Shown here piece after piece: positions 2,800 to 64,000 of a stretch of DNA of 64,000 bases. Each line of letters opens with the position of its first letter. Position 1 is the stretch's first letter. A program made the position numbers and the translations under genes. This stretch comes from Nemopilema nomurai (taxonomy: Eukaryota > Cnidaria > Scyphozoa > Rhizostomeae > Rhizostomatidae): assembly GCA_003864495.1 (NCBI GenBank), contig ML133463.1:62001-126000 (forward strand), read 5' to 3'. The notes below the pieces were generated by a model. That model was not told where the DNA came from and did no database searches. It saw only the letters and a list, made by a program, of their open reading frames with translations.

Positions 2800-3110
2800 C
2801 TCTCCGCTCCTTACCTCTCCGCTCCCTACCTCTCCGCTCCCTACCTCTCCGCTCTCTACCTCTCCGCTCCCTACCTCTCCGCTCTCTACCTCTCCGCTCT
2901 CTACCTCTCCGCTCCCTACCTCTCCGCTCCCTACCTCTCCGCTCCCTACCTCTCCGCTCTCTTCCTATCCGCTCCCAACCTCTCCGCTCCCTACCTCTCC
3001 GCTCCCTACCTCTCCGCTCCCTACCTCTCCGCTCCCTACCTCTCCGCTCCCTACCTCTCCGCTCCCTACCTCTCCGCTCCCTACCTCTCCGCTCCCTACC
3101 TCTCCGCTCC
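2800..3110. repeat. 15-bp minisatellite, about 20 copies
   Basis: Tandem copies of ctctccgctccctac run with very few substitutions (ccc to ctc variants, one altered unit near 2960-2980). The plus strand is almost purely pyrimidine. Since the period is a multiple of three, all frames are open and give artificial Leu-Arg-Ser or Tyr-Leu-Ser-Ala peptides; I see no reason to call it coding. Confidence 0.95.
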
Positions 3111-9133: not shown

Positions 9134-18802
<9,669 letters not shown>

Positions 18803-21726: not shown

Positions 21727-23764
21727 CATTTTGATTTGAATAGAAGTAAGATGAGATAGTAGAAATGTTAATAAAATTCAAAAACAGCCAAGGGAAATCA
21801 GTAAAGAAGAAAACACTACATTAAAGTTAAAAAAATTTGAAATTTAGGTTCATAACATTTGCTGGTATTTTCATCATGTTCGATTAGGTCAAACCTTTTA
21901 AAAGGCAATTTTTCATTTTATTTTGAAAGATACTTTGTTGGCGTTGAAAGATATTTTTAAGAACAGAACGCATAATACATTCATATGGTTGGAAGAACAG
22001 AATGCTAAGATGCGTTCAACTCAGTGTTTGGCAAGCGTTGAAATTTCAATGAGAGTAGAGACAATATGCCGTTGCAGTTAATCGAGGAAAAGGTAGAAAA
22101 AAGGTTTAATGGATTGGGTCTTGAGATTTCAGTTATGTTCTGATTCCATAGGAGAGCAGATTTCTTAGGGACTTGATAACCTGATCCGAAGGGCATATCA
22201 CTAGGAAAAGATCTATGAGATTTTAGTGATTTCGAAAGTCACAATATTTTTCTAGCGGTTTTTGTGATTTTTGTAGATAACATGACTTTTTGTTACTTTT
22301 TTGTTTTTTTGTGATTTTTGCTTGACTTTCTTTTGTAACTTTAGAGATTTTTCTTGCCTTTTTTAAGTTTTGCATTAAAAATTTCATTTTACGAGTCGTG
22401 AATGTTTGAGAAAAAATCCGTGAAAAAATTTAATTAAGAACAAACCATTAAAGACTGAATATTCTGAAATACAATGTAACTTTTCTGTCACATGCAAAAT
22501 TTCGAACAAAAGCATAGCTAAATCAATGAAAATAGTCTCTTATCGATAAGTCACTATGTGGAAAAATTGATCTTGACTTCACAGTTACTATTTCCTTTTA
22601 ATTATTATTATTAAAATTATCATTATAATTGTTTTCAATATAATTAACATAATTATTAGAATTATTTTGCTATCATGGATTCAATCTCTTAGGACCTCCG
22701 TTTTCCTTTGAGCCTTTTTCTCAATTAAAAGACCAGAGCAGTTATTTGGCGTATGAAACCTTCAGCGAAGTAAATGGTCTCATTTAGCACGAAATGCAAA
22801 AGGCTTCAACTGGAATATTTCAGGGACCTTGGGGCATACTTCCATGATGGCTCATTCTTCTCGATCTTAAAATGCATTTGGAACAGTACATCATATTTGA
22901 TACCCACTGCACTGTCTTACCATCATATCGCTGACAACATACAACTTCTTATCTCTAGCCTCTATCTCCGATTTAAAACCTTCATCATAACAAACCACTA
23001 CTCCTGCTTTTCAGTCCGTTGTGTTGTTCGTAAGGCGACTGTCTTGGTCCTCTACTGTTTCATCCATTCTCTTCATAAATTACATAAATCTGAAAAATAG
23101 AAACATTTAGGTTTCTCCCCACATGGTTAGAACGACCGTTTGTCTCAACCAGTCCATTGGTCTCCATTTGCAGACGATGCTGCCGACTTCTGCCGAATTG
23201 TTTCATTCGCCAATAGGCTTACATGATCACACGTGTCGATAAGTGCACCACTTCTAAAATGGAGAAATTTTCCTTACTTTCTCTTAAGTATTAACCAAAG
23301 CTTTTCATAAACATCAAATCTCGGTCCTCATTTTTACTTTGAAATGACAAACGAAGAACATAGATCTAATCCTTTTATCATCACGGTCAAACATGTTCAA
23401 AAAAATCGATTCCCAGTCTCTTCATGCAAAAAAGTAAGCTGCGTCTTTATCATTACTTGGTTCATTCTAAAGTCTCTTGGAATCTCACTGCAGCAGATCA
23501 TTCAAAGAAGTGAATAGTCTCATATCCAAACACATGTGTCAATGGTTCGACCTCCAAATTAATCTCTCCACAACCAAGTTTGGACTCAGTCCAACTTCAT
23601 CATCGGCCAAATTCCTACTGTGTCAAACTGTTTTGCGCAAAGCATTGAAATATTAAAGAAACGACAACATTTAATCTTTATGAGAAAATAAAAGTAGTAT
23701 CGCAAATATACAGAATGGCATATATAAGAATACGAGGGATGCATTCCTCATGCATTCCAAGCAA
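21727..23764. other. Intergenic, AT-rich, no gene recognised
   Basis: Mostly AT-rich low-complexity DNA (ttttgtg runs at 22260-22380, att runs at 22600-22670). A 108-codon open stretch at 22774-23100 has a weak resemblance to reverse-transcriptase remnants but in the wrong motif order. Confidence 0.45.
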
Positions 23765-25740
23765 GTTTGCTCGATGTTATGCATACACAAATGCTGCAAG
23801 GACAAACAGAAAGATGGTGTCGCTGCACTTTGTTTGAATAATGCATAAAGTTTCCGATGTTATGGATGTACAAATGCTGAGAGGAAAAACGAAAGATGGT
23901 CTCAGTTACACTTTTTTTGAAATAACCCATAAAAATACATCGATGTTATGGATATACAAATGCTGAGAGGACAAACAGAAAAGGATGGTCTCGGTTGCAC
24001 TTTTTTTGAAATAACCCATAAAGTTTCATTGATGTTATGGATATACAAATGCTGAGAGGACAAACAGAAGAGGATGGTCTCGGTTGCACTTTGTTTGAAA
24101 TAACCCATAAAGTTTCCTCGATGTTATGGATATACAAATGCTGAGAGGACAAACAGAAGTGGATGGTCTCGGTTGCACTTTGTTTGAAATAACCCAAAAA
24201 GTTTCATTGATGTTATGGATATACAAATGCTGAGAGGACAAACAGAAGAGGATGGTCTCGGTTGCACTTTGTTTGAAATAACCAAAAGTTTCTCGATGTT
24301 ATGGATATACAAATGCTGAGAGGACAAACAGAAGTGGATGGTCTCGGTTGCACTTTGTTTGAAATAACCCATAAAGTTTCCTCGATGTTATGGATATACA
24401 AATGCTGAGAGGACAAACAGAAGTGGATGGTCTCGGTTGCACTTTTTTTGAAATAACCTAAAAAGTTTCCTTGATGTTATGGATATACAAATGCTGAGAG
24501 GACAAACAGAAAAGGATGGTCTCGGTTGCACTTTGTTTGAAATAACCAAAAAGTTTCCTCGATGTTATGGATATACAAATGCTGAGAGGACAAACAGAAA
24601 AGGATGGTCTCGGTTGCACTTTGTTTGAAATAACCTAAAAAGTTTCTCGATGTTATGGATATACAAATGCTGAGAGGACAAACAGAAAAGATGGTCTCGG
24701 TTGCACTTTTTTTGAAATAACCCATAAAGTTTCCTTGATGTTATGGATATACAAATGCTGAGAGGACAAACAGAAGAGGATGGTCTCGGTTGCACTTTTT
24801 TGAAATAACCTAAAGTTTCTCGATGTTATGGATATACAAATGCTGAGAGGACAAACAGAAGAGGATGGTCTCGGTTGCACTTTTTTTGAAATAACCCATA
24901 AAGATTCCTCGATGTTATGGATATACAAATGCTGAGAGGACAAACAGATAAGGATGGTCTCTGTTGCACTTTGTTTGAAATAACCCATAAAGTTTCCTTC
25001 ATATTATGGATATACAAATGCTGAGAGGACAAACAGAAGAGGATGGTCTCGGTTGCACTTTTTTGAAATAACCTAAAAAGTTTCCTTGATGTTATGGATA
25101 TACAAATGCTGAGAGGACAAACAGACGAGGATGGTCTCGGTTGCACTTTGTTTGAAATAACCCATAAAGTTTCCTCGATGTTATGGATATACAAATGCTG
25201 AGAGGACAAACAGAAGAGATGGTCTCGGTTGCACTTTGTTTGAAATAACCATAAAGTTTCCTTGATGTTATGGATATACAAATGCTGAGAGGACAAACAG
25301 AAAAGGATGGTCTCGGTTGCACTTTGTTTGAAATAAACCATAAAGTTTCCTTGATGTTATGGATATACAAATGCTGAGAGGACAAACAGAAGAGGATGGT
25401 CTCGGTTGCACTTTGTTTGAAATAACCTAAAAAGTTTCTCGATGTTATGGATATACAAAGCTGAGAGGACAAACAGAAGAGGATGGTCTCGGTTGCACTT
25501 TGTTTGAATAACCTAAAGTTTTCTCGATGTTATGGATATACAAATGCTGAGAGGACAAACAGAAGAGGATGGTCTCGGTTGCACTTTGTTTGAAATAACC
25601 TAAAAAGTTTCTCGATGTTATGGATATACAAATGCTGAGAGGACAAACAGAAGAGGATGGTCTCGGTTGCACTTTGTTTGAAATAACCTAAAAAGTTTTC
25701 TCGATGTTATGGATGTTCAAAAGCTGAGAGGACAAACAGA
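23765..25740. repeat. 88-bp satellite, about 23 copies
   Basis: The unit begins gatgttatggatatacaaat, continues gctgagaggacaaacagaag and ggatggtctcggttgcactt, and ends tgtttgaaataacccataaa plus gtttcctc. Lengths vary from 84 to 90 bases through small indels. The first two or three copies on the left are the most diverged; the interior is nearly uniform. The minus strand shows overlapping open frames of up to 171 codons, but the period is not a multiple of three and the frame changes each unit, so these are artefacts. Confidence 0.95.
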
Positions 25741-27025
25741 AGAAAGGTAATCGCTTTTAAACAGTTTCTAAATTGTGAAATGAAATTTCATTCGTAGTGA
25801 TAATAAAGACGTGTTAAATTACTACATTAAGAACCAGATTTATTTATGGCTAGAAATTATTCGATTTTAATCAATGCCAAATTGCTTTGTAGCTGCAAGT
25901 AACAGGAAAGGTAAACAACACTTTCCTACATGAAAGCTTGATAACTTAATTTGAATTAGTGCAAGGTCTCCCTCTTGCATATTATGAAACTTTCAAGATT
26001 TTCAATAGAATAGAACCAAGATATCTTTTTGCCCAAAAGAGAATTTAACCAGTTGTCCTTTCTTTGACAAAGTTTGGTATCAAAGATTTGTTGCTATCTA
26101 ACGAAAGGTAACCAGAACTCTCCCAAACTAAATTTAATCAAAGATTCTTAAGACGCTACTTGAAATTGGAACAAATACCAATTTAATAAAGATTTATTTA
26201 TATATTTAATCTATGACTGAATGAAAGTATTTGTTCATAATTTAAGAGATCATAACTTATAAAAATTCTGTTCATGACTATTGTACCTTAAATCGAATGC
26301 AGATTTGGAAATTTCAGAGCATCCTGAATATATTTTTATTACATCTTATTTAACTTTCACGTGAAATTGTACAATAGATGTTTTTGATAATTCCTAGAAA
26401 TTTTGAAGTTTGTAATGTGATATTTGTAAGTATTTTCAGTAACATTTGTTTTGACTTTTAAACACTGTCTATTATTTGAAACAAGAGACTACATGCAGAA
26501 AAATTTTGATCATGCAAGGTTCTGAGCAACATAAGTAATACATGGTGGTCACACAAAGTGTTTAACTCTAAGTGCTAGCCTAGAACCATTAAACATAAAC
26601 TTAAACATTAAAAAAAAAGTTCAGCACATAAATACTGTTTTCAGAGATGGAAAATTTTAGTGGATTTGACATCAGTTGGTCCATAAGTCATTCTGTTAGG
26701 TGAAAATCCCTTGTGAAAATTAGGGTCCAAAATTTAACCATTCACAGGACTTATATATTTTACAAATTTTTTTAGGATAATTTCTAAACCTTAAAGAAAA
26801 AAGCTTCCCATAGCTTTTTCACCTATAATATCAAATTTAGTAAAAATAGAAGATAAAAACTCCAGTTGTCATTCCAGGCCATGAAAAAAATCTTTACAAT
26901 GTTGCATCTTAAAATCCCAAATATAAAGAAAGTGAGCTACTTTCTGTAGAGTGTTGAATATTTTCTTGAAAATAATGATGAGGATGGATTAATCCATTTC
27001 AGAGCATAATAGTTGTGGATAATTA
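25741..27025. other. Intergenic, 3' flank of POLR3K
   Basis: AT-rich DNA with no exon, repeat family or RNA gene that I can support. The 3' untranslated region of POLR3K must begin at its right end. Confidence 0.5.
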
Positions 27026-28799: not shown

Positions 28800-31700
28800 A
28801 TGGAAAATGAAGAAGATGGTAGGCCAAAGCTTAAATCTCTCAGTGCGGAGGAAAAGATGTGCCTTGAAGAAATAGTAAGATTATGGATTATACATTTGTC
28901 AATTTACTTCCTATCCATCAATCTATAAAAGTTTTTTAAGAGTAGAACTCTGTAGAAATAATTCTGAATTACAATTTTTATTAATGTTAGCAAATAGTCC
29001 TCAATGGATTTAAGGTACAATTTTGAGATAAGTTTAGTGCATCCCCTTCTGTTTTTTTTTATTCTATCCTTAAGAAAAGTCAGACCACTGCCAACCATAA
29101 TTTTGCTTTTCAACACTTTGAATAAAGAAACATTTGAACCAGTTTGCTGATGTGCCACTTCATATAAAAATGCATACACAATGTGATCCTTTTTTCAAAA
29201 TAACCATTATTTTATAGTTGATCATGTGTCACCAGGAAGTAATTCTATCTTCAGTATATCATGCCTTTGTTGGCAGATTGTTTCCACAGCTCTCTCTACT
29301 TGTCACAATCCTGTTCGTTTACTGCTTGCCTTCTTTTCAATGTCATTTCTCCACCTTATTTTTGGCCTTTCTATTGCTTTCTTTCTGTCCAATGGGGTCC
29401 ATTCTGTCATTTTCTTAGCCCATTCATGACACCCATTCCTTTTGTTCTTGCTCTTAATTCTTGGTTCCTGATCTTATCTCTTTTTGTGATACCCCATATT
29501 GCTCTCACCATACTTTTTTGGGTGATTGCCAGCTTGCCTTTTTGCCAGTTGGTAAGTGACCAAGTCTCTGTCCATATGTCATGCCTGTAGTATGACAGTA
29601 TCCACAATATTCTCTTAAGAACATGCTGAACTGCCGAAATCTCTTTGAGGCGACTGTTATCCACTTATCAATTTCTCTAGCCATCTCACTTCCTGGTGTC
29701 AGCACTCTTTCCAAATACTTGCATTCATCTACCCCTTCAAGTTTTTCTCCTTCTATTGATATTCCATTCCATCAGTGTTTCCTTGCTTTTTTCATTGCAC
29801 ATGACTTGTCTTTTTGTTTTAAGAAGTAATTATGTTGGTATTTGTAGGCCAAGCTAGTGCATAAAATGCTTCTTAATTCTAAAGTAATGTTGTAGATATG
29901 TGGCCTGCAGACTGTATTAAGACTGGCCTGCAGACTGCAGACTGTATCACCTGCATCTGTATTTCTTGACTTTTAGTGTACATCAAATGGACTTGAATTC
30001 TCTGAAAGGACAATTTACAAACATACCCTTGAAGTTGAGCTTTTTCTAAATGGAATTTCAGCTATGCCTCCAATGAGACAGTTTCCTGCCCTTGTGAAGT
30101 TGCATTTAATAGGCCATCAAATTTCTAAGATTGAACATTTAGAAACCCTGATTAATCTGGAGGAGCTTTGGATTTGTGAATGTAGCATAAAGGTGAGAAA
30201 TTTGTTTATCTGTGCATCAAGACAATGCTCATTAGTCTTCTATATCTTCTGTTTGCTTTGGTAAAAGAAGCTCAAGTTATAATGAATTCAAACTGAAGTT
30301 GAAAAACTGTGCAGTAATTTGTTGAGCTAGGTTAATTTCTGATTAATGAAATGATCCCAAGATTTTGAAGCTGTTAAGAATACTCAAAGATTATATATCC
30401 AGTATTAGTAATCTTTCAATTCCAATACATTTATATTGGTATTAAGATGTGTTTTACATAATCTTAAGCTTTTTACTTTTGACAAGCTCTAGCAAAGTCA
30501 TAGGTTTCATGTGTTTGTGACATTCGTTCAATATGTGTTTCCTTGATTTTAGATACCCTTGCTATATCCATCTTTTCATTTAGTTTTTTAGACTATCATC
30601 TAGGCTCTTGAAAAGGTTCATTGCTTTTCATCAGTTTCAAATCTTTGAATTTTAATAAGCATCTTTTTATTATATGTTATAGGTCTTGGAAAATCTGGCT
30701 CGGAATAGGAGTTTGAAGAAACTGTACCTTTATGAAAATGAAATAGAGAAGATTGAAAATATTTCACATTTGAAGTTTCTTGAAGTTCTTTGGCTAAATG
30801 GAAATAGAATAAGCAAAATTGAGGTACTTTGAATTATTGTTGTTGCAATTACATTTTGAGGTTGGATTAGAATTATGCATTTATACCATATTTGTTAAAA
30901 TGGAGCTTTGTTCTTGTCTTTTTCCTGTGAGATAACTTCTTTTTAATGTTGCAACAACCTGTTAGTTTTCCTGTTATATTAAATGGTAATCCATTCAAAC
31001 TTTGATTGAATGAAGAAGATTTTTAATGTAGCTCAAACTTAGCCTGTGTACTAAGTCAGACTTCTAAGAGACTTTTTGATATTTGTGCTGCTAACACTGA
31101 AAGTCTTGCAACAAGAAAACTGATACATCATGCATTTTTCACTTGGTACAAATGAATTATCTCTATTTCACCATTTTCAATATTTTCAAAGGGTATTAAT
31201 GCTCTCGAGAATATAAAGGATCTAAATCTCAGTGAAAATTGCATTACTACAATTGGTAAGTATGTTGTTTTTAAATTATGTTTGAATGTGTCAGATTTTG
31301 ATTTTTTGAAATTTCTTTTGCCTTGCTGTAGCCCTGATATTTGTTTATTTAAAATCATTGCTATCAATTGGATTTAGTTTTGATATGTCAATGACATTTA
31401 TCTCTCGTAAATAGGTAATTGCTCAAGTAGTTTGGTCTTAATGTGACCTAATTATTTGCTCTTTCAGGCCGGTCTTTAGAAAGCAATCAAAAGATTGAGA
31501 TTCTGAACCTGTCTGGTAATCCAATTTGTTCTATAAAGGTGAGTTATTGTTAGTGTAACGATAAATGCTTTAGATCTTAGATCTTATATTTTAGTCTAAG
31601 AACGTCAATTTCTTTTTGGTTGTAGACAAATTTTGAAAATTAGGCAAATTGGTACAGAAACAGAGTAGTATTCAATGTTGAGTTATTCGGTGTTAATCTG

Positions 31701-40700: not shown

Positions 40701-43700
40701 TTTTTCGCATTTCGCATGGTGCCGCTTCATGGCCAGTCTAATTTGTCCCTCCAGAATACTATTCGGCCTCATTTAATTTAATACAATGCTGTCTAGTTTA
40801 CGACCAAGGTACTTCAGGACACCTAGGTTCTAATTCTGTCCATGATTGAATCTGATTGTTATGTTTGCAGGAAAGACGTATCTATTGACACAATATACAT
40901 AAATGTATACATACATTGCGCTCTTTTTCCATTTACTTCCAAAATTTTTACACATGAAAAGTGTTAGATGCATGTTTGCTCATGTATGTATGTCCTTAAG
41001 AGCTTATGGAAGAAAGTTTTCTCACACAATATTTTCTCAATACAACAGATTGACACATCTCCGTCTCTTCCAGGTCACGTGCCTCCAATTAGACAACCAG
41101 CACTTGAGCAAGATTTCAAACTTGGAGCATCTGGATAACCTCAAGTATGTTTCATTCAACAACAATGACATCACCAAGATAGAGGTAGGCCTTATTGTTT
41201 TCATTATCGATCGCCTCACTTTTGCCTCATGCAAATGCAGAACATTGTTACCTGTAATCTGTTCTGAAAGTCTACAAACCTCATTTGGTAAGTTTCTTTT
41301 TCAGAGCATGATGATTTGCATATTGGTAGCTTTAATCGTGTTTTTAATTTCTTTTTAGGGTCTTGAAAGCTGCCCGCAAATCGAAGAACTTTCTCTAGCT
41401 GGCAACTGTATCTCAAAGCTGGAAGGAATTGACCACCTTCTGAAGTTACAATCCCTCAATTTGGATAACAACAATTTGATGTCAATTGACGCCACGAATT
41501 TCGAAAAACTGACCGAACTTAGACATCTTTCACTGGAAAATAATTTCATATCCAGAATCAGGAGCCTTCAGGTTTGAGAAAATACATAGCGAGAATGTTG
41601 CAAAGTTACTTGTTCGTCTCCGTTTTGTTCCTTTTTTACAGCCTTGGTGAAGTTTTGGGCTGGTTGCGTTTCAAAGTAGCTTAAAAATCAATAAAGCATT
41701 AAAAATCAGTCTTCTAGCACTGACCCTGTTTTTTGGTTTCGGATACTGTGACAGGTAGGCAAATGATCATTGTGCAAGGAAGAAGGCATTCTCTATTTCC
41801 CTGTCAACTTTAATTACCTGCTAGTACTTTCTCTCTCGCATGTATTGAATTCTGCTGAAGAAAGCAAAAGCTTTTACAAGAAATTCGTTCTAGTTATTCT
41901 GTCACAATAGCGTTTGGAATCTGTCCTTACGGCTTTATGATCAGAGGTCGGTTATCAAATGGACTATTGGGATAAAGTCTTCGTTAGTTATCTTTAGTGA
42001 ACGAAACAACTTCTGTTACTAGAGGACCTCATTTAGAATGGAATCTTTTCTGTTTCAGAAAGCAACGTCTCTACATGATGTATTTCTTGGTAACAACAAG
42101 ATTACAAACATGCGAGAATTATTCCACCTGAAAGTATGATTTTGAAGCTCTCATTTTTTTTTGATTGAGACAAATGCCACACATGTTGCAGGAATATTTG
42201 GCATACCTTGCGATGTTTTTTATAATCAAAAAGTGATACTGGAGTGACTCTTGATATTGGATGCGAAACATATACAACTTGCATAAATTGAAGCCAAATA
42301 TTCTCTATTCTTTTAATATAATTGAATCATCACTTTTTAATTTTTATCTAAAATGCCATTTCGTAATTCTGATAGCAGTTATTCTAACCCTGTACGCCAT
42401 AACTCTCATCATTTCTATTCTTGACACAAATGGGTTTTGATCAGCTGATTTGAATAATTTGATTTGAAATATCCGAACCTCCTTTGGTATAGAACATCCA
42501 GTGCTTGGCAATCCTTGATCTGATTGGCAATCCAATCGCAGATGAGTCGCCGGATTACAGAATCTTCATCATTTACCATCTCCAATCATTGCGCGCGCTG
42601 GATGGCAAGGCTGTTGATCAAATGGAAGAAACTATCGCCAAGGATACCTACGGAGGCCGCTTGACTCAAGATCTTGTGGCGGAGAGACTCGGTCACTCCA
42701 ACTTTGTCGATGTTTGTGAGCTGGACCTGCCCAACCAGGGACTAAGAAGCATCGACCTTGGCAATGGAGATTCGTTTAGCTACTTGACAAGGTCTGCTGA
42801 CTCTTTTCATGTTTTCTCCATAACAATGGTAATGCCATAAACTTTCACTTGAGATATCATATTTGTCATTTTATATATACCAGCGAATCATGTTTTGTGC
42901 CGAGACATGTTGATAGCGACGTTTCATTGCAGTGTAAACTTGGAGCATAACAGTTTGACAAACTTCGGAGGACTGATTCATTTGTCAAATTTAAAGGTTT
43001 GTAATTTTCTTACTGCAACTGTTGGTTCTAAAGAACATAAGAAGCTTCTGATTTAGCTGTTGGTAGGCAGAGCCTCTTTAGTTATGTATATATATACATA
43101 TATAGCTTTTTTACTTGTGTCATGTCTATGAGCTAAAAATATTGCATGCAGAGCACCTCTACCTGATCATCAAGATGTTTTTGACCCAGGACGTTCTCAT
43201 CTCCTTAAGGTCCTGTGTCTGAACTTCAATCACGTGGATAGTATTGTTGGTAAGCCAAAGGTGACACAGGTGCCAACAAATCCTTCGCAAAAGGTCATCA
43301 GTGAGCTGACCAACAGTGAATACCACACGCCTGTTCTGGACAGACTCGAAGTGCTGCATCTAGGGTGAGTCTGTCAATAATTTTTCGTCCTCTCCATTTC
43401 AAATTTACGTCAAAATCAGTTGTATTTTATAATGACACTGTAATAATCATAAATATGGCTTTTTGCCTGAAACAGAAGTTTATGTTGATACCTACAATTG
43501 TTATTGAAGGACTGCATTCTCATTTCTGCTCCTATGTAAGTGGAAAAGCTTTTATCCATGGTCCTGATCGGCAGAACAGCCTGATTTCCAATGCCCGAGA
43601 CAGGTTTACGCATGACAAAGTGTTATTTTGAAGCTCGCTTAATGCCCTTCCTTTTTATTGCCATAGCGATGCATTTCCAAGCTTGCATACATAATTCGCT

Positions 43701-51116: not shown

Positions 51117-51623
51117 ATGGGTCAAGGAAAATCCTCTTGTCTCGAGTGTTTCGATGTTCCGGACTTTATAGTCGGCATTAAGACGGGTGACACGAAAGGG
51201 GCTGGCTTGCACAACGCAGTGTACGTTACTTTTGTCAACGAAGAAGGCGAGAAGTCGAGAGAAGTGCACCTGAACGGTTGCTGTGTAACTGTGTTCAAGA
51301 AGGGCCGCACCGACGAGTTCAACGTGTCGCGACTGTCCGGGTTCGGAAATATAAAGAGCATCGTCCTGCAACAGCACGAAGAGCAGGGCGACGTGGACTG
51401 GTACGTGGACAAGGTGACCGTCCGGCACACCCACGACGATGCCAACGGCAAGGTGGCTGTCTTTCCGGTCAACCGGTGGATGCGGCCTAACAAACCACTG
51501 GCCATCAGCGCCTTCGACAGCTCGCTGCCGCAGTTCGACGAGCACCCGGAGCAGCGCAAGAGCGAGCTGATCCGGAAACAGGCCGCCTATGGATACCACC
51601 GGGTTAGGGACTTGCCAGCCCAG
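51117..51623 (+). CDS. Lipoxygenase-like protein exon 1: PLAT domain
   Basis: The exon encodes 169 residues from MGQGKSSCLECFDVP. The beta-sandwich runs from FIVGIKTGDTKGAGLHNAVY, through GRTDEFNVSRL and DVDWYVDKVTVRH, to VFPVNRWM, as in other animal lipoxygenases where this domain binds membranes and calcium. The MGQGKSSC start is a possible N-myristoylation and palmitoylation signal (Gly2, Ser/Cys nearby), which is not typical of the family and would tether the protein to membranes. The exon is noticeably GC-rich from 51240 to 51600. Other open frames over the same bases are shadows. Confidence 0.9.
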
Positions 51624-54600
51624 GTTCGTCAAATTCAAGTTAAACCTTTATTCTAAACATCCTCATTTTATGAAATGTGTTGTGTATAGTTCTCATATAA
51701 CTGAAATTTCGACTCTTGTATCCAAAAGATCAAACACAGGACATATGGAGTATCGAAAATCCATGCACTGGACTTGGAAAAGACTGAAACCTCTATTTTC
51801 ATAGAAAACCGGCTGGATTTTTTTCCATTTTCTGGCAACATACCACCTTACGATCCCTTTGTGCACTAACCGGCATTGTGCTTAGGCCGGTAGGGGCAAT
51901 GAACTTCTTACATATGCAATTTAACCACGATTCTACGCTCAAAACAAATATAAGTGGGGCTATACTTTAATGCCTGGCTCGGTTTGTTTGCTGTTTGTAT
52001 TTCACTTGTGACGTCATGGCCTCGGATACATTGGTATCGCCATTCCCGCATCATGCTGATGTGCCTTGCACCAATAAGGGAAACTGGACTAGATGCAGAA
52101 GCCACTGGTTTTGTTTGATTTGTGAGTAATTCGGAAAATAACAGACAGCACAATTATTACTCTGCTGCCACAGTTCACAATGCAAGTTAACAATGGAAGT
52201 TTGCGTTGCGCAGGCGCAAATATTCTTATATATGCTAGAACAAGATATCTGATTTGTGAATTCTCTGTGATAGATACGAATGCTTCCAAGAGAGGAAATC
52301 TACAGCAATTTTCACAAGGTGAATATGTTTCTTTTTGGATTGCTCTTTAAGTAGTTTCTTTACATTATATGTGGAGCCAGAGTTTGAATTGGAAATACAT
52401 ACAGCTCTGATAAGGCTTTCAAATGGTCCATCCCAAACGATCTTCTGTGGGATGGACCATTGTTTTGCTAGGAGTGGCTGCTTGAGCTCAGCATGTATTG
52501 CTCTTTTGGGTATGCTTTGTTTCCATGTGTTTTTGCGTCGTTTATAACGGTGCGTTTCTTGTTAACAGTTCGACATAAAAGCCAAGAAAGCAACCTTCCT
52601 CAATACAAACGTCAGCTAGTGGTGGAGCCAATTTCTTGGGAATCAATCGAGGAATTAGAAAGTCTTTTCAAAGAAAAGGGAAAATTATCACGTCCATCCG
52701 TAAGTGTTGAAACACGCTTAACCTGTTTTTAACAAGCTTCTAAATTCAAAGCCAGACAGTATAGAAGATATATATGACAAGTAAATTACACATACATAGC
52801 ATATCTTGTTTATGTGCTGTAAATGTTTTAAAAACTTTTACTTTTTCAAGAAAGAATTGAATCTGCTAGCGCATGACTGAATGGGGCTTCGATAGCATCT
52901 ATAGCAATAATTACATTTTATAATGCTTTAAATAATGAGTATTTGATAATACTCGCAATATCATTTTGATTGTTTCAAGTGTTATCAGCATTTTTTCACC
53001 GATATCATTTCAATATTTCTATGCAATGATTAATGAAAACCTCACATCAATTTAATGCTCATATTTCTAGATAACATTGATTATTAAATGTTTACGTTTA
53101 AAGTCGTGTAATCTCTGATGCCATTTCTAATAACATTGCAATTGTCTAGTGTATGGATGAATGGAAGTCTGACATTCACTTTGGTGAACAAAGGATAATT
53201 GGATGCAACCCAAGATCTATTCAACTTTGTAAAGAGTTACCCGAAAAGTATGTTGAATATATTTCAACCTCACTTCATGACTTAGAAACGAAATCAGAAG
53301 AATGTTATGTTAATTTGTAACTCAAAGTGGAATTATGTTAGCCAAGATAGGTTGATAAATCCTGACTAGAACCTTGGAATGCTGAAAATAATATTTAATT
53401 ATTTTCGTTAAAGGTTCTGAAAACTTCTTTCCTCTTTACTGTATCGATACCCTAAAGGAACAATTGCTTATCTTTTCTAAGTTGTTTTTGCTGAATTAAG
53501 GTCACATTGAAAAATAGACGCTTTGTATACCTGTCTTCTGTCTTGATGGCTTATGCAAACCTTTTAATATTGAATGCACCTATAAATGGATTCTTCAATT
53601 ACAGGTGTAAATGAATCATGCTCATTGAAATTTTAAGGCCAAACTTTCCAGGGCCTCTGACAAAGGGGGGGCCGGGGGGCCATGTCCCCCGCACTTTGTT
53701 GTAAAACAATAGAGCTTTTCCAAATATCTTTTGTTATAATTGTTAAAATTTTCCTTGGCCCCTCCACTTTCAAACCTGCGTCGGAGCCTATGTTTTCCCT
53801 CTATATTCCAACCGTGTAATGTTTTACAATTTGAGAAACGCGTTTTTGAAGGACGTTTCGCCAGCTCTTTCTTATTGAAGCTTTTCTCAAAATGATTTTA
53901 TTTGAATGTTTTCCAATAGTTTTGGTGCCGATAGTGGCGAGCTGGAACAGTTCCTCGAAGGAAAGAAGTTCAGTGAAGCGATAGAGAGCAAGAAGATATT
54001 TATAGTAAATCATAAAATTCTCGACGGATTTTCCGACATACAAAACAATAACAAGGTAAGCCAATTTGAGGACACAATCTAAAGAAAAGTTACAAATCAC
54101 TTTTTACAAAGACTTTGTTTGGTGGCTATCCGGAATCGCCGGAACTAGTTTAAAGAGTAGAGAGCGCGAAGAGAGAGTTGAGTTTGGGGTTGGTTGGGTG
54201 AGGAAAGTGACGAATTAATGTCGTAGAAAATAGAAAAGATTGGAGTCAGATTTTATTTTTAGTGCTACACCCCTTCGAAGCTTCATCTTTAAGCAAGCAA
54301 AATATTCGGAGTATGCATATGTCATTGCAGTGTAAATAGCTGGTTTTCAAAATAATTTGTTTCTGTTCCCATACTTTTGACATATAATATTTTCCTAAAT
54401 AATCATTAACATTTTTATTTCAGATACCAAGTCCTATTGCATTATTTTATTTAAACTCGGAGAACCACTTGACGCCAATTGCTATCCAGCTGTATCAGGA
54501 GAAGACGGAGAACAACCCAGTAAGATATTTTTACTTTGTTAGTCAATATATTTACCGTTCTTTTCCATTTTATATCAATATACATAAACCGCGAACCATG

Positions 54601-57600
54601 ATTATCGAATCAGTTTTATATGAAGAAATTTATGACGGATTTATGTCGATAATGTTTTCTTTCAAACTGACCAAAAGCATTTTAACTTTTGAACAATGAA
54701 TTTATTAATATTTACTTTATTAAGTCGAATTTCGAAAACCTCGTAAGATGATTATTACAGTTTTATGTAGAAGAACTTATGACAGATTAATGCCTTATAG
54801 GTGCTCTTTCCAGCTGACCAAGAGCATTCTAACTTTTCATCAATGAATTTATTTATATTTACCTTTTTAGATGAAATCACCAAAACATCGTACGATTATT
54901 ATTAAAGTTTTTATGTAGAAGAACTTATGACGGATTAATGCCTTACAGGTCTTCTTTCCGACCGATCAAGAGCATGTCTGGTTGGCTGCTAAAATGTGGT
55001 TCAACTGTGCCGATTCAGCATTTCACCGGTCCTGTTTGCTTTTCGGTAGGCATTGCCTCCCACTTTGTGTTGCAAAGCTTCATGTTTTAAAACGAGTCAT
55101 ACCTTTGTCGTGAAAAGGTTTGTTTTGGTCTTGCATCTAAATGTGCATAAGCCAATCACGTGCTCCAGATTGATAACAATGTTAGCAATTGGCGTAACCG
55201 ATAAAAAAATTTTCTGAACACTGGATGCAAGTTTTAGGAACAATGTTGGTTTTTTAATACCCAGGTCATGATTTTTATTTATTCTCATTTGGCTATATCT
55301 TGGCCAAGTCTACTTAAAAGAGTCAGTCATCAACGCCTCTTCTCAATAAATCAAGAATTACACGTCTTTACTCACAACATTTTGTGATCTATGAATAACT
55401 GTCGGTTGAATTTTGTCTCTGTTTTGAAATATTACATGTCATGCTCTTCAAGCTCTTCATTGGTTTCAGCGGGAACTCATATGGTCCTTGAAATGGTCGC
55501 AATTTCAGTGCACCGTCATTTGTCACCATCGCATCCCATCTTCCGCCTACTTGGACCATACCTTCGATACGTGCTTTCGATCAATAAGTAATTAATCCCT
55601 TTCTGGTCTCTTCTCCAGCTATCTGTTTTGAAAATAGCTCAAGGCATATTTACTAGAAAATAGCACATTATATATATTTGCCTGAAATTTTCAACATTCC
55701 CATAGATATCTTATGCATATTTCAAATTTGTTTTTTTTATTCTACTTTTTTAATTCTGCCTGATCAATTAGCAAATTTAAATATCATTTCCAAATAGCTT
55801 CGTTTGAAGTTGTTAATTTTACGTAAAAGGTTACTGAGTCTAAAATTGAACTAACAAAAGAAAGTAAAACAAGGCGTAAATAATTTTTTGTTTGCTTCTT
55901 TTTGTGTGAAAATGCAAGTCATAAGATATTTGCAAGAGATAAAACACTACTTGTGATGGGTGCCTTACCCTTAGATTACATCTGTTTTGCATAGTTGAAA
56001 AACAAGCATCCTTCCCATTATTAGATTTGAATAGCCAGACCCTCTGGGCCATATCTGATCTTTCATTTTGTCACTTCAGTTTTGAGATGAGCTTTTTGTC
56101 TGCCCCCGGAGGATGGATGGACTACGTAACTAACATCGGAGTTAACGGAATGAACGAGCTGATTAAGAGATAGTATGTCTAGTTTGGTCCTTATAATGAC
56201 GAGAAAGGCGATGCAGCCTTGGTGTTACAGAATGATGTTTTGTTTTAAAATGCTTGCAATTTAGAACTCTAATTGACCTAGGATCATTCTGGTCAATGGA
56301 AACGAGTGTAAATTGGAAACTGATGCTTCAATGACATTAATATCCAATGAGGAAACATTTTCCGAAAGAGCCTTGTCTTCCCTTTTGATTCTTGTACCTT
56401 CGATTTCTTGGGCATCGAGAATGAAGTTTGATCCAGGCTTTTTGACTAAAGTAATTATAAATGAAATTAATGGTTTTTGTTTTGTTTGACTCTCTTTGCA
56501 GATGCATCTCAGATCTCGACTTATTCCTTAGAAACTAGTTGTTAACGATAGTTGGTGCAGTGTGTTCTGTGACATAAAATGTTTTTCAGTATGAGTGAAT
56601 GGCGCTTAGATCTTCATGGCTGTCTTCCTAAATTCCTGGAAGCAAATGGCGTAAGTTAAGGATAATATTATACTATATCATATTGAATTGTGGCTTGACT
56701 TAATTCACTATTACGTTTTATTATCTGTTACATTTTATGCATTTTCTTGTATTCTGTATAATGTTTACAGCAATCTGAATTTTCTTTTCTTGTTTTGCTT
56801 GAAATTAAATTTTACTTTACAATGTTTTTTTTAAACGATACAGGGTTAAATTGTGTTTTTTCCAAGCGTGTAGTATTTTGTGTGTCATTAAGTTGCTTTT
56901 CATCAAATAGATATTATATAACATTATAGTCATGATGCTCATTATACACCTGCTTTTTCTGACATTACTTTTTATTGCTTCTCGCTACCTTAAAACTATC
57001 TAGCTTTCAAGAGTCTATATTTTTGAAAATCTCTTTTTAATTTAAGGTGGCTGACCCTGAAACAATCCCAGATTACCCCTACAGAGATGATGGCTTGCTT
57101 TTACATGAAGTCATGGAAAAATATGTAACAAGCATTGTATACGGAAACTATGGTACGTAGCTTTTTTAGTAATTCCTTTTTCTAAATAGAATAGTGTTTC
57201 GTACAAAATATTATATTAACAATTTAACGTTATAGAAACTATATTTTTTATACTATTGGAACATTTATATAGTTACTGTTATAACGTTATTTCTATAACT
57301 ATTGGCAAATATGATTTCCTCATCTACTCAACTGAATCTCATTTTACATACCAGAAGATAATTCCGTTATTTTTTTAAATTATTCTAATATATTTTGTCA
57401 ATATAATATAAGTTTTATGTTGTTCTCTATTATAATTCAAAGTTTAAACTTAGAATTTGAACAAAATTCAAGCGCAATCTGCTTTGTGGTGAAGACATCA
57501 TTTGATAGATGTTGGAAATAATTTCTCTTTGCATCAAAGTTTTAATGCAGATTTCGAGCAGAAATTAAAGCGTTATTGGTTGCTCAATTCATTAGTCATT

Positions 57601-60600
57601 TGGATGCAGTAACTGCGATCTTCTAAGTAGAACAAAAGTTTGCTTGATATACAGACGACAGGAGGTTCCGAGTTGTTCATCTCATGTGATTGTGATACGT
57701 CTTGGCACAATAAATGCTTTCTAGACAATGTTGTTCAATTTTAGTACCATTCTACTATGTTTATGTTAGTACCATTATGTTTATGTCACATGTTGTGTTT
57801 GGTGGTGTGACCAAAAACTGGCATTGACATATTTATATTTTATGTTTAGCTTTGGAAAGCTTACCAACCCGATGATAATTCTCAGAACCTCCCTGAAGTG
57901 AAAAATGTTATACGTTAATCGGGAATTTATGTTTACTTTCCAGATAGTGAAGAGAAATTGCAAAATGACTACGAGATTCAAAATTGGGCCCAAGAATTGG
58001 TCAGTGAAGATGGCTGCAGCCTGAAGGTGAGAAATCCATTTTTCTTCGACGTTGAAAGCATTAAGACAAAACAAAAGCCATTAAAGGATTTAAACGGAGA
58101 ACGTTTGCCGCATGCTTTGTTTACCAATGTTGCTGTTTCTAACAGTATGCTTTTTTCGGAGTGGGAGTACATTCTAATGGCATCAGGTATAGGCTTCGCC
58201 GGGGGCTTCAATTGTACGACTTAGGTCTTCCGTTTCTAGTTGTGTCAAATAGGGTGATGACAAAGAAAAGTTTGTTCCTTGCTAGTAAATGTATTTGTGA
58301 CTACAAAAGATCATCACTATGAATATAACAGTATGGTTTTATACACGCAATAAGCATTTTCTGAACTGAATCGCAAGAAGTCGTGTAAAAGGTTGCAACA
58401 TCAGGTTAGGAGCATTGATAAAAGTTGGAACATTGTCAAGGATTATAAGTCAAGGATTACAAAATATTTCATTTTCATTTGAATGAAGCATTTGAAATAT
58501 TCGTATTTATGTTTTATCCTCTGTTTTATCCTTATTTGGCCACCTTGTCATCCATCTTATGCCACTATCAGCCAATAGGGGTACCTTACGAGTTTTCTTT
58601 CAACATAGGGTGTCCCAGGTGATGGCAAGTTTAGTAATACAAGCCAGCTTGTGGAGACGCTTACCTCCATCATATTCCTAAGCACGGTGGAGAACGCGGC
58701 CGTGAACCTGCCAACTTATGACGAATGCGCCTTCATCCCCAACTACCCCATGGCCCTTAGAGGGGCTCCACCCAACTCAAAGGTATGACTTCTTTATTGC
58801 AACAATCGCCATCTTGTATCGGCCAGGTTAAATCTTTTTAAACACTCAATGGCTTTCATACAAGGAAGTTCAACAGACATTTGGCAACAGAGACCCAAAC
58901 TGCATCATAATGTTATATGGCAAACATATTCATAACTATACGAAATAATTCGATTTGGGGAAAGCAAATCTTAAAGATATCATAAAGCAACAATGTTTCG
59001 AAGAAGGGAAAAATTTGCTTCTGATTTTTAAAAGATTCAAAAGTACTGTCAACAAGAAAGCTCTATTTAAAAACTGAGCTCCGTTTTGCGATATATATTA
59101 GGCGCAAGACAAGACAAAAAGCAAAAGACAGCAGCATCTTTTACCAGCAAAAGGCTTGAGTAAAAAGAATCATGAACTTACTTTCCTTGCAACGCAACAC
59201 ATGTGACCTAAGAGTAGATTAAGCTTCTCCTGGGATCACTTGAAGATGGCTCATTATCTGTAGCGGGTGCCTTATCAGTGTCTCGGAGTCATGTTTTGAA
59301 CGTGATTGCTAAGTGCACACGAATGGCCTCTGACCCCTGATTATAACCTTTGATCGATTTGTCCTTTGACCTTTATCACTCTATCAAAATAAAGGATCCG
59401 TTGAGCATGTCATACATTATCGACTGTCTACCAATGAAGCACACAACGGCAGAAATCATAGTTGTCAACAAACTTGTTAGCGAAAGAGAGACGAGCGGAA
59501 TGGCCGACACCAGATCTCAGTTTCAACATGACCCGATCTCGGTTGCAGCTAAGCACAGGTAAGCACCGTCAGTGGACCTTCTTTGCAATCTAGTCCCTCT
59601 CGTTATCTCCCTCTCGTTATCTACCTCTCATTATCACCGTCTCGTTATCGCCCTTTTGCTATCAGCATCTCTTGCTACCGCCCTCTTTTTATCGCCATCT
59701 TGCTATCGCCCTTTTGCTACCGCCCTCTTGCTACGCCCTTTTTTATCGCCCTCTTGCTTTCAGCCCTTCTGCTATCATCCTCTTATTTTAGCCTTTTTGT
59801 GAACAGCTCTTACTGTCTCTCTCTTGTTATCGCCCTCTTGCTATCGCCCCTGTTTATCGCCCTCTTGCTATCGCCCCTCTTTATCGCCCTCTTGCTATCG
59901 CCCCTCTTTATCGCCCTCTTTTCATCGCCCTCTTGCTATCGTCCTCTTGCTATCATCCTTTGTTAACCAACCCCCCCCTCCACGTTGCTATCGCCCTCTT
60001 CTTAGCACCCTATCCTAACTGTAAATAGCATTTAGTGCACCATCATAGCAAGCATCAAATGAGGATGCTAGCACCCCTTTTTTGTAAGCATCATGTAGTC
60101 TATAACAAACATTCACAAACATTGCTGTAAAATAAGCTATTAGTAATAACTCAGTTGATTGCAATTCGTTGACCCATTTCTTTGCTCCCAGTTACCCTTA
60201 AAAATTTTCATTGCAAGAATGCTTCCTTTATTACTTTGAGGAACTGTTTTCGTATCCATGATACTTATGTAATCAGCAGTTATTCATGTGTAGCATGCAA
60301 ACACTTATTTGGCTTCCCTCCATGTTTCCATCTCTAACAGAATCTTTTATGCAAACCAAATTGGTAAAATGTTTATGGAACCAAGTTAAATTAAAAAAAA
60401 CCTTCAAATAAACAGTTTGTTTATAAGCACTTTGACTCTTTAATATTCTGTCTGGGCAGATCTCTTCTATACTTTTGTTTATTATAGGTTTCTTGGCTCA
60501 TTGAGAGAGGCAGCTTCAAAAATAAACATGCACAATAAAAGGAGAAAGTGCGGGTATGATTACCTAAATCCAGGCATTCTGCCTCTCAGTCAACCTGATG

Positions 60601-60611
60601 CGTTCATGTAA
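51117..60611 (+). CDS. PLAT-lipoxygenase family protein, predicted catalytically dead
   Basis: Active lipoxygenases oxygenate polyunsaturated fatty acids with a non-haem iron held by His, His, His, Asn and the C-terminal Ile. Exons: 51117-51623, 52569-52699, 53150-53247, 53920-54055, 54424-54519, 54949-55045, 55470-55587, 56080-56172, 56590-56650, 57047-57152, 57944-58026, 58609-58782, 59395-59558, 60488-60611; about 662 residues, normal for the family. Family text is clear: PLAT domain, PSPIALFYLNSENHLTPIAI, SHPIFRLLGPYLRY, PYRDDGLLLHEVME, YDYLNPGILP. Of the five ligands only the first His (55024-55026) and the Asn (58705-58707) remain; the others are Leu, Asn and Met. Exon 1 ends in phase 0 while exon 2 needs one more base, so the gene is a base short unless a weak donor is used. 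All other junctions agree. It may be a pseudoenzyme or a young pseudogene. Confidence 0.92.
52569..52699 (+). CDS. Lipoxygenase-like exon 2, out of phase with exon 1
   Basis: The good acceptor (gttaacag) is followed by a frame that starts FDIKAKK, like the coral phrase GNIKAKT, but this frame soon hits TAG. The frame that continues into exon 3 reads SNLPQYKRQLVVEPISW. The two meet if one base is added in the run of four A at 52576-52580. Alternatives are a weak donor ttc/gtcaaa after exon 1 or a true frameshift. Confidence 0.75.
54600..54985 (+). repeat. Three tandem copies of the exon 6 splice-acceptor region
   Basis: Units of about 140 bases start near 54603, 54750 and 54888. Each contains a form of ttttatgtagaagaacttat, gac-gatta-tg and then ctttcc--ctgaccaagagcat. 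Only the third is the real exon 6 start (ttacag at 54948); the first two lie in intron 5 and decay towards the left, and their frames stop soon. Confidence 0.85.
54949..55587 (+). CDS. Lipoxygenase-like exons 6-7: first half of the iron site
   Basis: Exons 54949-55045 and 55470-55587. The long helix that carries two iron histidines reads AKMWFNCADSAFHRSCLLFA, then GTHMVLEMVAISVHRH. The first His (CAC 55024-55026, about residue 349) aligns with human ALOX5 His367. Five residues on, where His372 must stand, there is Leu (CTT 55039-55041). The Thr-His pair and SHPIFRLL beyond it align without gaps, so the replacement is not an alignment slip. The codon differs from a His codon (CAT/CAC) by more than one trivial read error in the same phrase (HRSCLL for HQxxTH). 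Confidence 0.9.
58609..58782 (+). CDS. Lipoxygenase-like exon 12: second half of the iron site
   Basis: The exon reads TLTSIIFLSTVENAAVNLPT, then YDECAFIPNYPMALRGAPP. In active family members the phrase is SAQHAAVNFGQYD, with His550 and Asn554 (ALOX5 numbering) binding iron. Here the His is Asn (AAC 58693-58695, about residue 538) while the Asn is kept (AAC 58705-58707). The surrounding AAVN and YD text is intact. Confidence 0.92.
59395..60611 (+). CDS. Lipoxygenase-like exons 13-14: C-terminus
   Basis: Exons 59395-59558 and 60488-60611. Text such as IIDCLPMKHTTAEIIVVNKL and SLREAASKINMHNKR corresponds to the family regions ending at the last helix, but the usual LG-Y motif and PEEHF text are not recognisable. 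The end reads YDYLNPGILPLSQPDAFM and a TAA (60609-60611). The terminal residue is Met, where the family has Ile that binds iron through its carboxylate. Confidence 0.88.
59590..60010. repeat. Imperfect 14-16 bp pyrimidine-rich minisatellite in a lipoxygenase intron
   Basis: Units such as ctcttgctatcgccc repeat from 30 bases after the exon 13 donor, with variants (ctcgttatctccct at the left end, gcccctctttatc further on). It is strongly pyrimidine-biased and gives false Leu/Ser/Tyr/Arg-rich frames. Confidence 0.9.
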
Positions 60612-61214: not shown

Positions 61215-64000
61215 AACACTAAGGCTATAACTTTGGAAAACTAGCTTGTTTCGATAGAAAATTATTTACTTAATACAATCCACGCTAGTGAAATACAATA
61301 GAGTGCCACTTGAGTATGATGCAAGTGACCCTTACGTTGGTTGGGTCCTTTACTAGGGTTGAAATAGTCCAGTTATGTGCATTTCAGCAAATAAAGGCAT
61401 GTGGCCAAAGCGCGACAAAACACTAAGGCTATAGCCTTGGAAAAAGAGGCATTTTTGATGGAAATTTTTTACTTCCAATTCATCCCAGACTGCTAGAGTA
61501 TGATGCAAGTGACCCCTTACGTTGGTTGGTCCATTACTAGGGTTGAAATAGTCCAGTTATGTGCATTTCAGCAAATAAAGGCATGTGGCCAAAGCGCGAC
61601 AAAACACTAAGGCTATAGCCTTGGAAAAAGAGGCATTTTTGATGGAAATTTTTTACTTCCAATTCATCCCAGACTGCTAGAGTATGATGCAAGTGACCCC
61701 TTACGTTGGTTGGGTATTACTAGGGTTGAAATAGTCCAGTTATGTGCATTTCAGCAAATAAAGGCATGTGGCCAAAGCGCGACAAAACACTAAGGCTATA
61801 GCCTTGGAAAAAGAGGCATTTTTGATGGAAATTTTTTACTTCCAATTCATCCCAGACTGCTAGAGTATGATGCAAGTGACCCCTTACGTTGGTTGGGTCC
61901 ATTACTAGGGTTGAAATAGTCCAGTTATGTGCATTTCAGCAAATAAAGGCATGTGGCCAAAGCGCGACAAAACACTAAGGCTATAGCCTTGGAAAAAGAG
62001 GCATTTTTGATGGAAATTTTTTCACTTCCAATTCATCCCAGACTGCTAGAGTATGATGCAAGTGACCCCTTACGTTGGTTGGGTCCATTACTAGTGGGTT
62101 GAAATAGTCCAGTTATGTGCATTTCAGCAAATAAAGGCATGTGGCCAAAGCGCGACAAAACACTAAGGCTATAGCCTTGGAAAAAGAGGCATTTTTGATG
62201 GAAATTTTTTTCACTTCCAATTCATCCCAGACTGCTAGAGTATGATGCAAGTGACCCTTACGTTGGTTGGGTCCATTACTAGGGTTGAAATAGTCCAGTT
62301 ATGTGCATTTCAGCAAATAAAGGCATGTGGCCAAAGCGCGACAAAACACTAAGGCTATAGCCTTGGAAAAAGAGGCATTTTTGATGGAAATTTTTTCACT
62401 TCCAATTCATCCCAGACTGCTAGAGTATGATGCAAGTGACCCCTTACGTTGGTTGGGTCCATTACTAGGGTTGAAATAGTCCAGTTATGTGCATTTCAGC
62501 AAATAAAGGCATGTGGCCAAAGCGCGACAAAACACTAAGGCTATAGCCTTGGAAAAAGAGGCATTTTTGATGGAAATTTTTTCACTTCCAATTCATCCCA
62601 GACTGCTAGAGTATGATGCAAGTGACCCCTTACGTTGGTTGGGTCCATTACTAGGGTTGAAATAGTCCAGTTATGTGCATTTCAGCAAATAAAGGCATGT
62701 GGCCAAAGCGCGACAAAACACTAAGGCTATAGCCTTGGAAAAAGAGGCATTTTTGATGGAAATTTTTTCACTTCCAATTCATCCCAGACTGCTAGAGTAT
62801 GATGCAAGTGACCCCTTACGTTGGTTGGGTCCATTACTAGGGTTGAAATAGTCCAGTTATGTGCATTTCAGCAAATAAAGGCATGTGGCCAAAGCGCGAC
62901 AAAACACTAAGGCTATAGCCTTGGAAAAAGAGGCATTTTTGATGGAAATTTTTTCACTTCCAATTCATCCCAGACTGCTAGAGTATGATGCAAGTGACCC
63001 CTTACGTTGGTTGGGTCCATTACTAGGGTTGAAATAGTCCAGTTATGTGCATTTCAGCAAATAAAGGCATGTGGCCAAAGCGCGACAAAACACTAAGGCT
63101 ATAGCCTTGGAAAAAGAGGCATTTTTGATGGAAATTTTTTCACTTCCAATTCATCCCAGACTGCTAGAGTATGATGCAAGTGACCCCTTACGTTGGTTGG
63201 GTCCATTACTAGGGTTGAAATAGTCCAGTTATGTGCATTTCAGCAAATAAAGGCATGTGGCCAAAGCGCGACAAAACACTAAGGCTATAGCCTTGGAAAA
63301 AGAGGCATTTTTGATGAAATTTTTTCACTTCCAATTCATCCCAGACTGCTAGAGTATGATGCAAGTGACCCCTTACGTTGGTTGGGTCCATTACTAGGGT
63401 TGAAATAGTCAGTTATGTGCATTTCAGCAAATAAAGGCATGTGGCCAAAGCGCGACAAAACACTAAGGCTATAGCCTTAAAAAGAGGCATTTTTGATGGA
63501 AATTTTTTCACTTCCAATTCATCCCAGACTGCTAGAGTATGATGCAAGTGACCCCTTACGTTGGTTGGGTCCATTACTAGGGTGAAATAGTCCAGTTATG
63601 TGCATTTCAGCAAATAAAGGCATGTGGCCAAAGCGCGACAAAACACTAAGGCTATAGCCTTGGAAAAAGAGGCATTTTTGATGGAAATTTTTTCACTTCC
63701 AATTCATCCCAGACTGCTAGAGTATGATGCAAGTGACCCCTTACGTTGGTTGGGTCCATTACTAGGGTTGAAATAGTCCAGTTATGTGCATTTCAGCAAA
63801 TAAAGGCATGTGGCCAAAGCGCGACAAAACACTAAGGCTATAGCCTTGGAAAAAGAGGCATTTTTGATGGAAATTTTTTCACTTCCAATTCATCCCAGAC
63901 TGCTAGAGTATGATGCAAGTGACCCCTTACGTTGGTTGGGTCCATTACTAGGGTTGAAATAGTCAGTTATGTGCATTTCAGCAAATAAAGGCATGTGGCC
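61215..64000. repeat. 186-bp satellite, about 14 copies, running off the window
   Basis: The phrase ggctatagccttggaaaaag recurs every 183-188 bases (61427, 61611, 61794, 61979, 62167, 62353, 62539, 62725, 62911, 63097, 63283, 63467, 63650, 63836). Units are nearly identical and differ mainly by one- or two-base indels in homopolymers. The first unit (about 61215-61410) is strongly diverged. Each unit also contains cgttggttgggtccattact and gcatgtggccaaagcgcgac. The 60-codon frames on the minus strand repeat with the unit and end in a stop within it, so they are not genes. Confidence 0.97.

Follow-up and report, generated by a model that had tools for sequence, protein, structure and literature searches.

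What becomes of a lipoxygenase once the histidines of its iron site have been replaced, and is such a protein still kept for a purpose? The question is raised by a gene of the jellyfish Nemopilema nomurai, located on the plus strand at 51117–60611 of the window (the whole stretch of DNA analysed here, 64,000 nt long, bases 62001–126000 of contig C97, i.e., ML133463.1); coordinates given without a contig name are positions in this window, and residue numbers are those of human 5-lipoxygenase (5-LOX, ALOX5) throughout. An earlier note on this DNA had described a full-length PLAT-lipoxygenase with missing iron ligands, and in that it was right: Pfam recovers the lipoxygenase domain (PF00305, E = 1.2e-56) and PLAT (PF01477, E = 6.2e-13), and the gene belongs to the family, with the sequence and fold of a lipoxygenase domain behind the PLAT domain. 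Our answer is that the gene is probably a member of an old clade of cnidarian pseudo-lipoxygenases, and that what it encodes is, very probably, a conserved protein without lipoxygenase activity.

A 2026 review states that all lipoxygenases share three fixed histidines and a terminal carboxyl; the terminal carboxylate is the fifth iron ligand and belongs in most cases to Ile, very rarely to Val (PMC13059375). In the lipoxygenase alignment, both the window protein and the protein of a second gene copy on contig C77 carry Leu at position 367, His at 372 and Asn at 550, with Asn554 retained, i.e., the three-histidine set of a catalytic lipoxygenase (367, 372 and 550) is broken. The earlier note had taken His372 as lost and His367 as kept; the two are reversed, Leu being at 367 (55039–55041) and His at 372 (55478–55480), and its assignment of Asn to 550 (58693–58695) beside a retained Asn554 (58705–58707) was correct. 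It had also counted a Met at the place of Ile673 as a lost ligand. We rejected the C-terminal Met in this role because the fifth ligand is a main-chain carboxylate, so that a Met side chain alone is no ligand loss; moreover, the protein ends differ between the copies (window ...GILPLSQPDAFM, ending in ...DAFM; C77 ...GILPSQST), the last exon of the C77 copy being one base longer than that of the window. What is lost instead is the entire canonical tail, PNxI with its terminal Ile or Val carboxylate: Pro668 and Asn669 occur in 37/37 canonical rows of the alignment, and never both in those rows of the clade described below that have a tail.

Relatives were collected by three protein searches, two of them giving the best 120 of 165 and the best 120 of 162 matches, which yielded 289 proteins and, with the C77 protein added, an alignment of 290 rows; these are the relatives from these searches and no census of lipoxygenases, and the 37 canonical rows, as well as the 54 and 74 rows of the two trees below, were hand-picked from the 289 proteins. 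Fourteen of the 290 rows, including the C77 protein of the jellyfish gene, make up a group that we call H-less. At the first ligand, 12 of these have Leu, one has Asn and one Phe (the Phe in a fragment with a doubtful start, P0191), to be set beside 268 His, seven other residues and one gap in the remaining 276 rows. Orthologues with the same replacement, to which the earlier note had pointed as a check, do exist. Among the members named are Oculina patagonica (P0006), Acropora millepora (P0008), Actinostola sp. (P0207) and Actinia tenebrosa (P0227), and the names of P0013 are presumably Clytia-style. Please note that counts refer to rows with letters: P0001 and P0008 have no comparable C-terminus, and P0005, P0013, P0046, P0191 and P0227 have no PLAT domain. 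P0191 is included in the trees and excluded from the pocket identity comparison; its start is misaligned upstream of the ligand, and its Phe367 and absent letter at 363 are unreliable.

In the 54-protein tree, which was built with the ligand and pocket columns masked, all 14 H-less rows fall into one clade with a support of 100/100, which splits into an anthozoan subclade of five and a subclade of nine with the jellyfish gene, each again at 100/100. The canonical cnidarian clade (nine rows) is its sister (81/92), and an earlier, quickly built tree of 74 rows, 12 of them canonical cnidarian ones, gave the same relation. Acropora and Oculina carry both H-less and canonical lipoxygenases. Exon pieces of a canonical gene were also found in the jellyfish genome on C129, with ligands His-His-His-Asn and mostly 80–90% identical to P0119, which we take to be from Aurelia, and more lipoxygenase pieces of the same genome, on C11, C12 and C88, have a first-ligand exon with H....H. 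Another piece, on C22 near 1429216–1429431, apparently has Ser at the first ligand position and Asn at the second, as judged from one weak alignment. Because the clade is supported at 100/100, has a canonical sister and co-occurs with canonical genes in Acropora, Oculina and the jellyfish genome, the simplest account would be a single loss of the first His that followed a duplication and preceded the anthozoan/medusozoan split; being common to the whole clade, the replacement is not a matter of chance. Four members (P0002, P0003, P0004 and P0007) have uninterrupted frames of 668–713 residues and longest contigs of only 2.3–3.1 kb, which for a gene of 15 exons suggests that they come from spliced transcripts.

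The loss of the first ligand is only one part of a rebuilt pocket. Of 99 columns that are at least 95% conserved in the 37 canonical sequences, the clade retains 64, keeps 22 in part and loses 13, the lost ones including 367, 368, 399, 400, 405, 547, 555, 668, 669 and 671, i.e., mostly iron site, shell and tail. All 14 members have Glu at the Ala410 (Coffa) site of stereocontrol, where catalytic lipoxygenases have Ala or Gly. Arg is found in 13/14 members at Gln363, which is presumably a second-sphere residue, the fourteenth (P0191) being without a usable letter. The two occur together in 13/13 members with letters at both sites and in 0/276 other rows; nor does any of these other rows (30 without a letter at 410) pair Arg or Lys at 363 with Glu or Asp at 410, and Arg363 alone is found in four. 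His372 is invariant (14/14). In 5-LOX, the accessible text of PMC11311652 lists Gln363, His372 and Ala410 as contacts of the active-site inhibitor nordihydroguaiaretic acid (NDGA), and because all three sites touch NDGA, Arg, Glu and His372 are likely clustered where iron and substrate would meet. Contact lists in the same source define 27 pocket columns. Over these columns the identity between anthozoan and window-side members is 0.546 (0.443 for the rest of the catalytic domain), and that between the H-less pocket and canonical cnidarian proteins is only 0.416. The predicted structure of one orthologue is a confident model in which the lipoxygenase fold is kept.

The PLAT domain has been altered as well. 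At positions 43, 44 and 46, which we take to be calcium ligands (N43, D44, E46) in the PLAT domain of 5-LOX, 9/9 clade members with PLAT have Thr, Val and Lys, other rows having mostly Asn/Asp, Asp and Glu; in the window, T17, D18, N43, D44 and E46 are replaced by Leu, His, Thr, Val and Lys (51207–51299). The acidic calcium ligands of calcium-dependent PLAT-lipoxygenases of the 11R-, 8R- or 5-LOX type are, in other words, missing. Trp102 of the contact between PLAT and catalytic domain is retained in 9/9. An N-myristoylation motif is a start of the form MGxxxS/T, and the window protein and P0001 both begin with MGQGKS; the acylated start proposed by the earlier note on the basis of MGQGKSSC is plausible. 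As a distinguishing feature we rejected it, since the motif is found widely and varies within the clade: MG starts 102/190 near-full-length sequences, clade rows included, and MGxxxS/T 57/190, iron-competent ones among them, and the nine clade members with PLAT have an MG start in six cases, MG at residue 37 in one and none in two.

As judged from the aligned sequences, the clade lacks the first iron His, the PLAT calcium-ligand positions and the C-terminal ligand tail and has gained Glu410 and Arg363, and the anthozoan branch shares these features with the branch bearing the window gene. We rate the H-less group as a pseudoenzyme clade within the lipoxygenase family. The earlier note had proposed a separate class, in which the fold is well kept and the iron site selectively broken; the orthologues sharing the loss, the tree, the orthologue model and the constraint described further below support this idea.

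The gene consists of 15 exons. A count of 14, as first given, had overlooked an exon of 45 nt (exon 2, 52274–52318; IRMLPREEIYSNFHK), which is flanked by AG and GT and is also present in the C77 copy and in P0001, the nearest orthologue in the protein search (84–89% identity, truncated at 440 residues). The first 14-exon model of 663 residues was rejected, P0001 and C77 revealing the extra exon and the true frame of exon 3; the read-through of exon 3 in that model needed a weak alternative donor, which P0001 contradicts. Exon 1 (51117–51623) encodes the MGQGKSSC start, a possible N-myristoylation motif identical in P0001, and the PLAT domain. Exon 3 (52569–52699) is one base shorter than its intact counterpart on C77, and its correct frame is broken near 52610. 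Exon 7 (54949–55045) contains the Arg at the Gln363 site (55027–55029) and the Leu of the first ligand site, exon 8 (55470–55587) the retained His372 and a Tyr at the His399 site (55559–55561), exon 9 (56080–56172) the Glu at the Coffa site (56084–56086), exon 13 (58609–58782) the Asn at the His550 site together with Asn554, and exon 15 (60488–60611) the degenerate tail without PNxI motif, whose end differs between the copies. The other exons of the model, all confirmed against C77, are exons 4 (53150–53247), 5 (53920–54055), 6 (54424–54519), 10 (56590–56650), 11 (57047–57152), 12 (57944–58026) and 14 (59395–59558). A 147-bp tandem repeat at 54612–54975 extends from intron 6 into the beginning of exon 7 and duplicates the acceptor and 5' end of that exon; its copies are decoy exon starts ahead of exon 7, the bearer of the lost first ligand.

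The assembly has 212.9 Mb in 226 contigs. A DNA search of it with exon 1 hit two places, the window and C77, where the second copy lies at 2474005–2483448 on the minus strand. From 25745 to 64000 the window is colinear with C77 at ~97% identity, except for a 600-base piece at 91%, which makes the two copies most likely haplotypes. To the left of 25745 the 90 kb of C77 that were compared gave no match longer than 400 bases, the match ending at a tandem array, and test pieces from this side have other copies on C53, and on C91 and C79. Because the C77 match stops here and the partners are then C53, C91 and C79, the sequence may have been misjoined or rearranged at 25745, or a stretch of at least 38 kb may have been duplicated; two clean haplotigs over the entire window were not borne out, the partner contig changing at this point. 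The switch is located beside an 89-bp tandem array.

Does the frame break, then, mean that the gene is dying? A decaying paralogue or pseudogene, whose iron site was lost after the gene fell out of use, is suggested by the break in exon 3, by the one-base difference in the last exon and by the replacement of His550 in the window protein (Asn), P0046 (Asn), P0207 (Asn) and P0005 (Ser), and decay had been one of the options of the earlier note. For the clade it is not supported; in the window copy the break may represent an allele or an assembly error. The C77 copy is open through exon 3; a comparison of the two copies over 1986 bases gives 11 synonymous changes and one replacement (ratio of replacement to synonymous change, pN/pS, 0.024; binomial probability 3.2e-7 under neutrality), and their coding divergence amounts to 12/2033 sites with 2 gaps, compared with 245/11087 noncoding sites with 59 gaps. 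Given this pN/pS and so few coding differences and gaps relative to noncoding sequence, the gene is under constraint, and the relaxed constraint of a pseudogene is not observed between the copies, though the window copy has its frame break. Identical pocket residues are moreover fixed in 13–14 members, which range from corals to the lineage of the window, and the uninterrupted frames of P0002, P0003, P0004 and P0007, which point to spliced transcripts, likewise speak against decay. On the shared pocket residues, the masked tree and the copy-to-copy constraint, a simple pseudogene was rejected at the level of the clade, and we regard decay as very improbable. The break itself concerns the copy rather than the family: with high probability, either the break is an assembly error or the window carries a null allele, and the species has a working gene. 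The ~97% colinearity with C77, as in two haplotypes, is consistent with this, as is the making of the published N. nomurai assembly from PacBio and Illumina reads (213 Mb, 255 scaffolds; PMC6441219), if that assembly is the source; the end of the C77 match at 25745, with the misjoin, rearrangement or duplication (38 kb or more) that it may reflect, is a point against it.

A further possibility is that the clade proteins are still metal enzymes, with Fe, Mn or Zn bound by His372, the His or Asn at 550, Asn554 and solvent and used for lipoxygenase-like or hydroperoxide chemistry. His372 is present in 14/14 members, and since His550 and Asn554 are both retained in 8/13 members with letters at both sites, clade proteins may bind metal weakly, which also counts against our own reading of a protein without iron. 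Such an enzyme nevertheless seems improbable to us: the window protein is without two side-chain ligands and without the tail, three histidines and a terminal carboxyl are stated as common to all lipoxygenases in the consulted part of PMC13059375, and a charged Glu stands at the site facing the substrate pentadiene. Other observations also weigh against our reading. P0005 ends in Ile, though its tail is shorter than canonical. The H-less clade is faster-evolving, with a catalytic-domain identity across its two branches of 0.443 versus 0.574 in the canonical clade, and the protection of its pocket relative to the rest is weaker (0.546 versus 0.785, with 0.443 versus 0.574 for the rest); since conservation is higher throughout in the canonical clade, and relatively higher still in its pocket, this comparison speaks against H-less and canonical pockets being fully equivalent in function. 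The low confidence of the structural model at the tail may partly stem from poor alignment there. Both one-base length differences, that of exon 3 and that of the last exon, alter the protein. The MGxxxS/T motif fits 4/9 clade members with PLAT (one of them internally) and is common in canonical lipoxygenases, and a partnership with a catalytic paralogue is argued from co-occurrence only.

If the jellyfish gene is indeed a conserved pseudo-lipoxygenase, the following course seems reasonable. The clade would go back to a duplicated cnidarian lipoxygenase. Together with the retained His372, the buried Arg and Glu would fill or close the space of the iron and the substrate pentadiene, and because these three residues would occupy that place, the protein would neither bind iron nor oxygenate fatty acids. 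It may instead serve as a scaffold, a lipid sensor or a regulatory partner, the simplest partner being the catalytic paralogue retained in the same species; this particular partnership we consider rather unlikely. In the window lineage, the N-terminal MG may possibly tether the protein to membranes without calcium. A broader proposal, which we offer tentatively and with somewhat less than even confidence, is that the iron-free state of the fold has been reached repeatedly, with Arg363 replacing the charge of the lost metal after loss of the first His (to Leu in cnidarians and Ser in chelicerates), that Glu410 in cnidarians would pair with Arg363 to give a sealed or lipid-sensing core, and that the protein would be a calcium-independent regulator of the oxylipin pathway, membrane-tethered in some lineages, which predates the coral-jellyfish split.

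The surroundings of the gene are rich in repeats. A 186-bp satellite array (61312–64000; 14.5 copies, 98% matches) begins ~700 bases downstream of the gene, and the same satellite is found downstream of the C77 copy. Further tandem arrays, at 14844–15468, 23763–25743, 4506–7073 and 2799–3110, have periods of 28, 89, 173 and 15, and those at 2799, 14844 and 23763 open long open reading frames that are apparently spurious. Seven upstream open reading frames were compared with Pfam: three have leucine-rich-repeat matches (29977–30261, 40903–41355 and 42493–42837; LRR_4, LRR_9), two of these below the cut-off, and four have none. The three are perhaps exons of one leucine-rich-repeat gene.

The H-less clade, present in corals, anemones and medusozoan-type cnidarians, breaks the three-histidine rule as worded in the accessible text of the 2026 review (PMC13059375), and in the open-licence literature, covered mainly as titles and abstract starts, we found no report of an iron-less lipoxygenase clade, cnidarian or other. 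With new fixed pocket residues in place of random change, it offers a natural experiment on the lipoxygenase fold without iron. Clade proteins in Acropora and Actinia bear database labels such as ALOX15B-like and arachidonate 8S-lipoxygenase-like, and because of such names oxylipin-making genes may have been overcounted in cnidarians. Cnidarian eicosanoid synthesis responds to wounding (available part of PMC3925239); if a clade protein does regulate its catalytic paralogue, it would provide a handle on lipoxygenase control in wound-responsive animals.

How does the clade compare with known systems? The canonical cnidarian lipoxygenases (Nematostella P0208, Acropora P0209, Aurelia-type P0119, Hydra P0122) and the coral 8R- and 11R-LOX (PDB 2fnq, 3vf1) are like it in having PLAT plus catalytic domain, in length and in fold, and an MG start is also seen in 11/12 of the canonical cnidarian proteins listed, the twelfth having it at residue 4; the iron site, Gln363, the Coffa residue, the PLAT calcium-ligand positions and the C-terminal tail are, by contrast, all altered in the H-less clade. 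Human 5-LOX (ALOX5; PDB 3o8y, 3v98) has all five ligands, whereas His372 is the only invariant side-chain ligand of the clade. Single lipoxygenase-like proteins with altered iron ligands were also seen in Saccoglossus, Tubulanus, Haliotis, Antedon and Amphibalanus (P0018, P0060, P0166, P0175 and P0061), i.e., ligand loss recurs across animals. A trio of chelicerate lipoxygenases (P0162 of Centruroides, P0176 of Ornithodoros, and P0173) has independently lost the first His (to Ser) and changed Gln363 to Arg; unlike the H-less clade, it has Met or Ile at 410, keeps the PNSVSV C-terminus in 2/3 and takes a separate position in the tree. Like pseudoenzymes in general, the H-less clade has kept its fold, lost catalytic residues and stayed under purifying selection, with a paralogue of the active type in the same genome.

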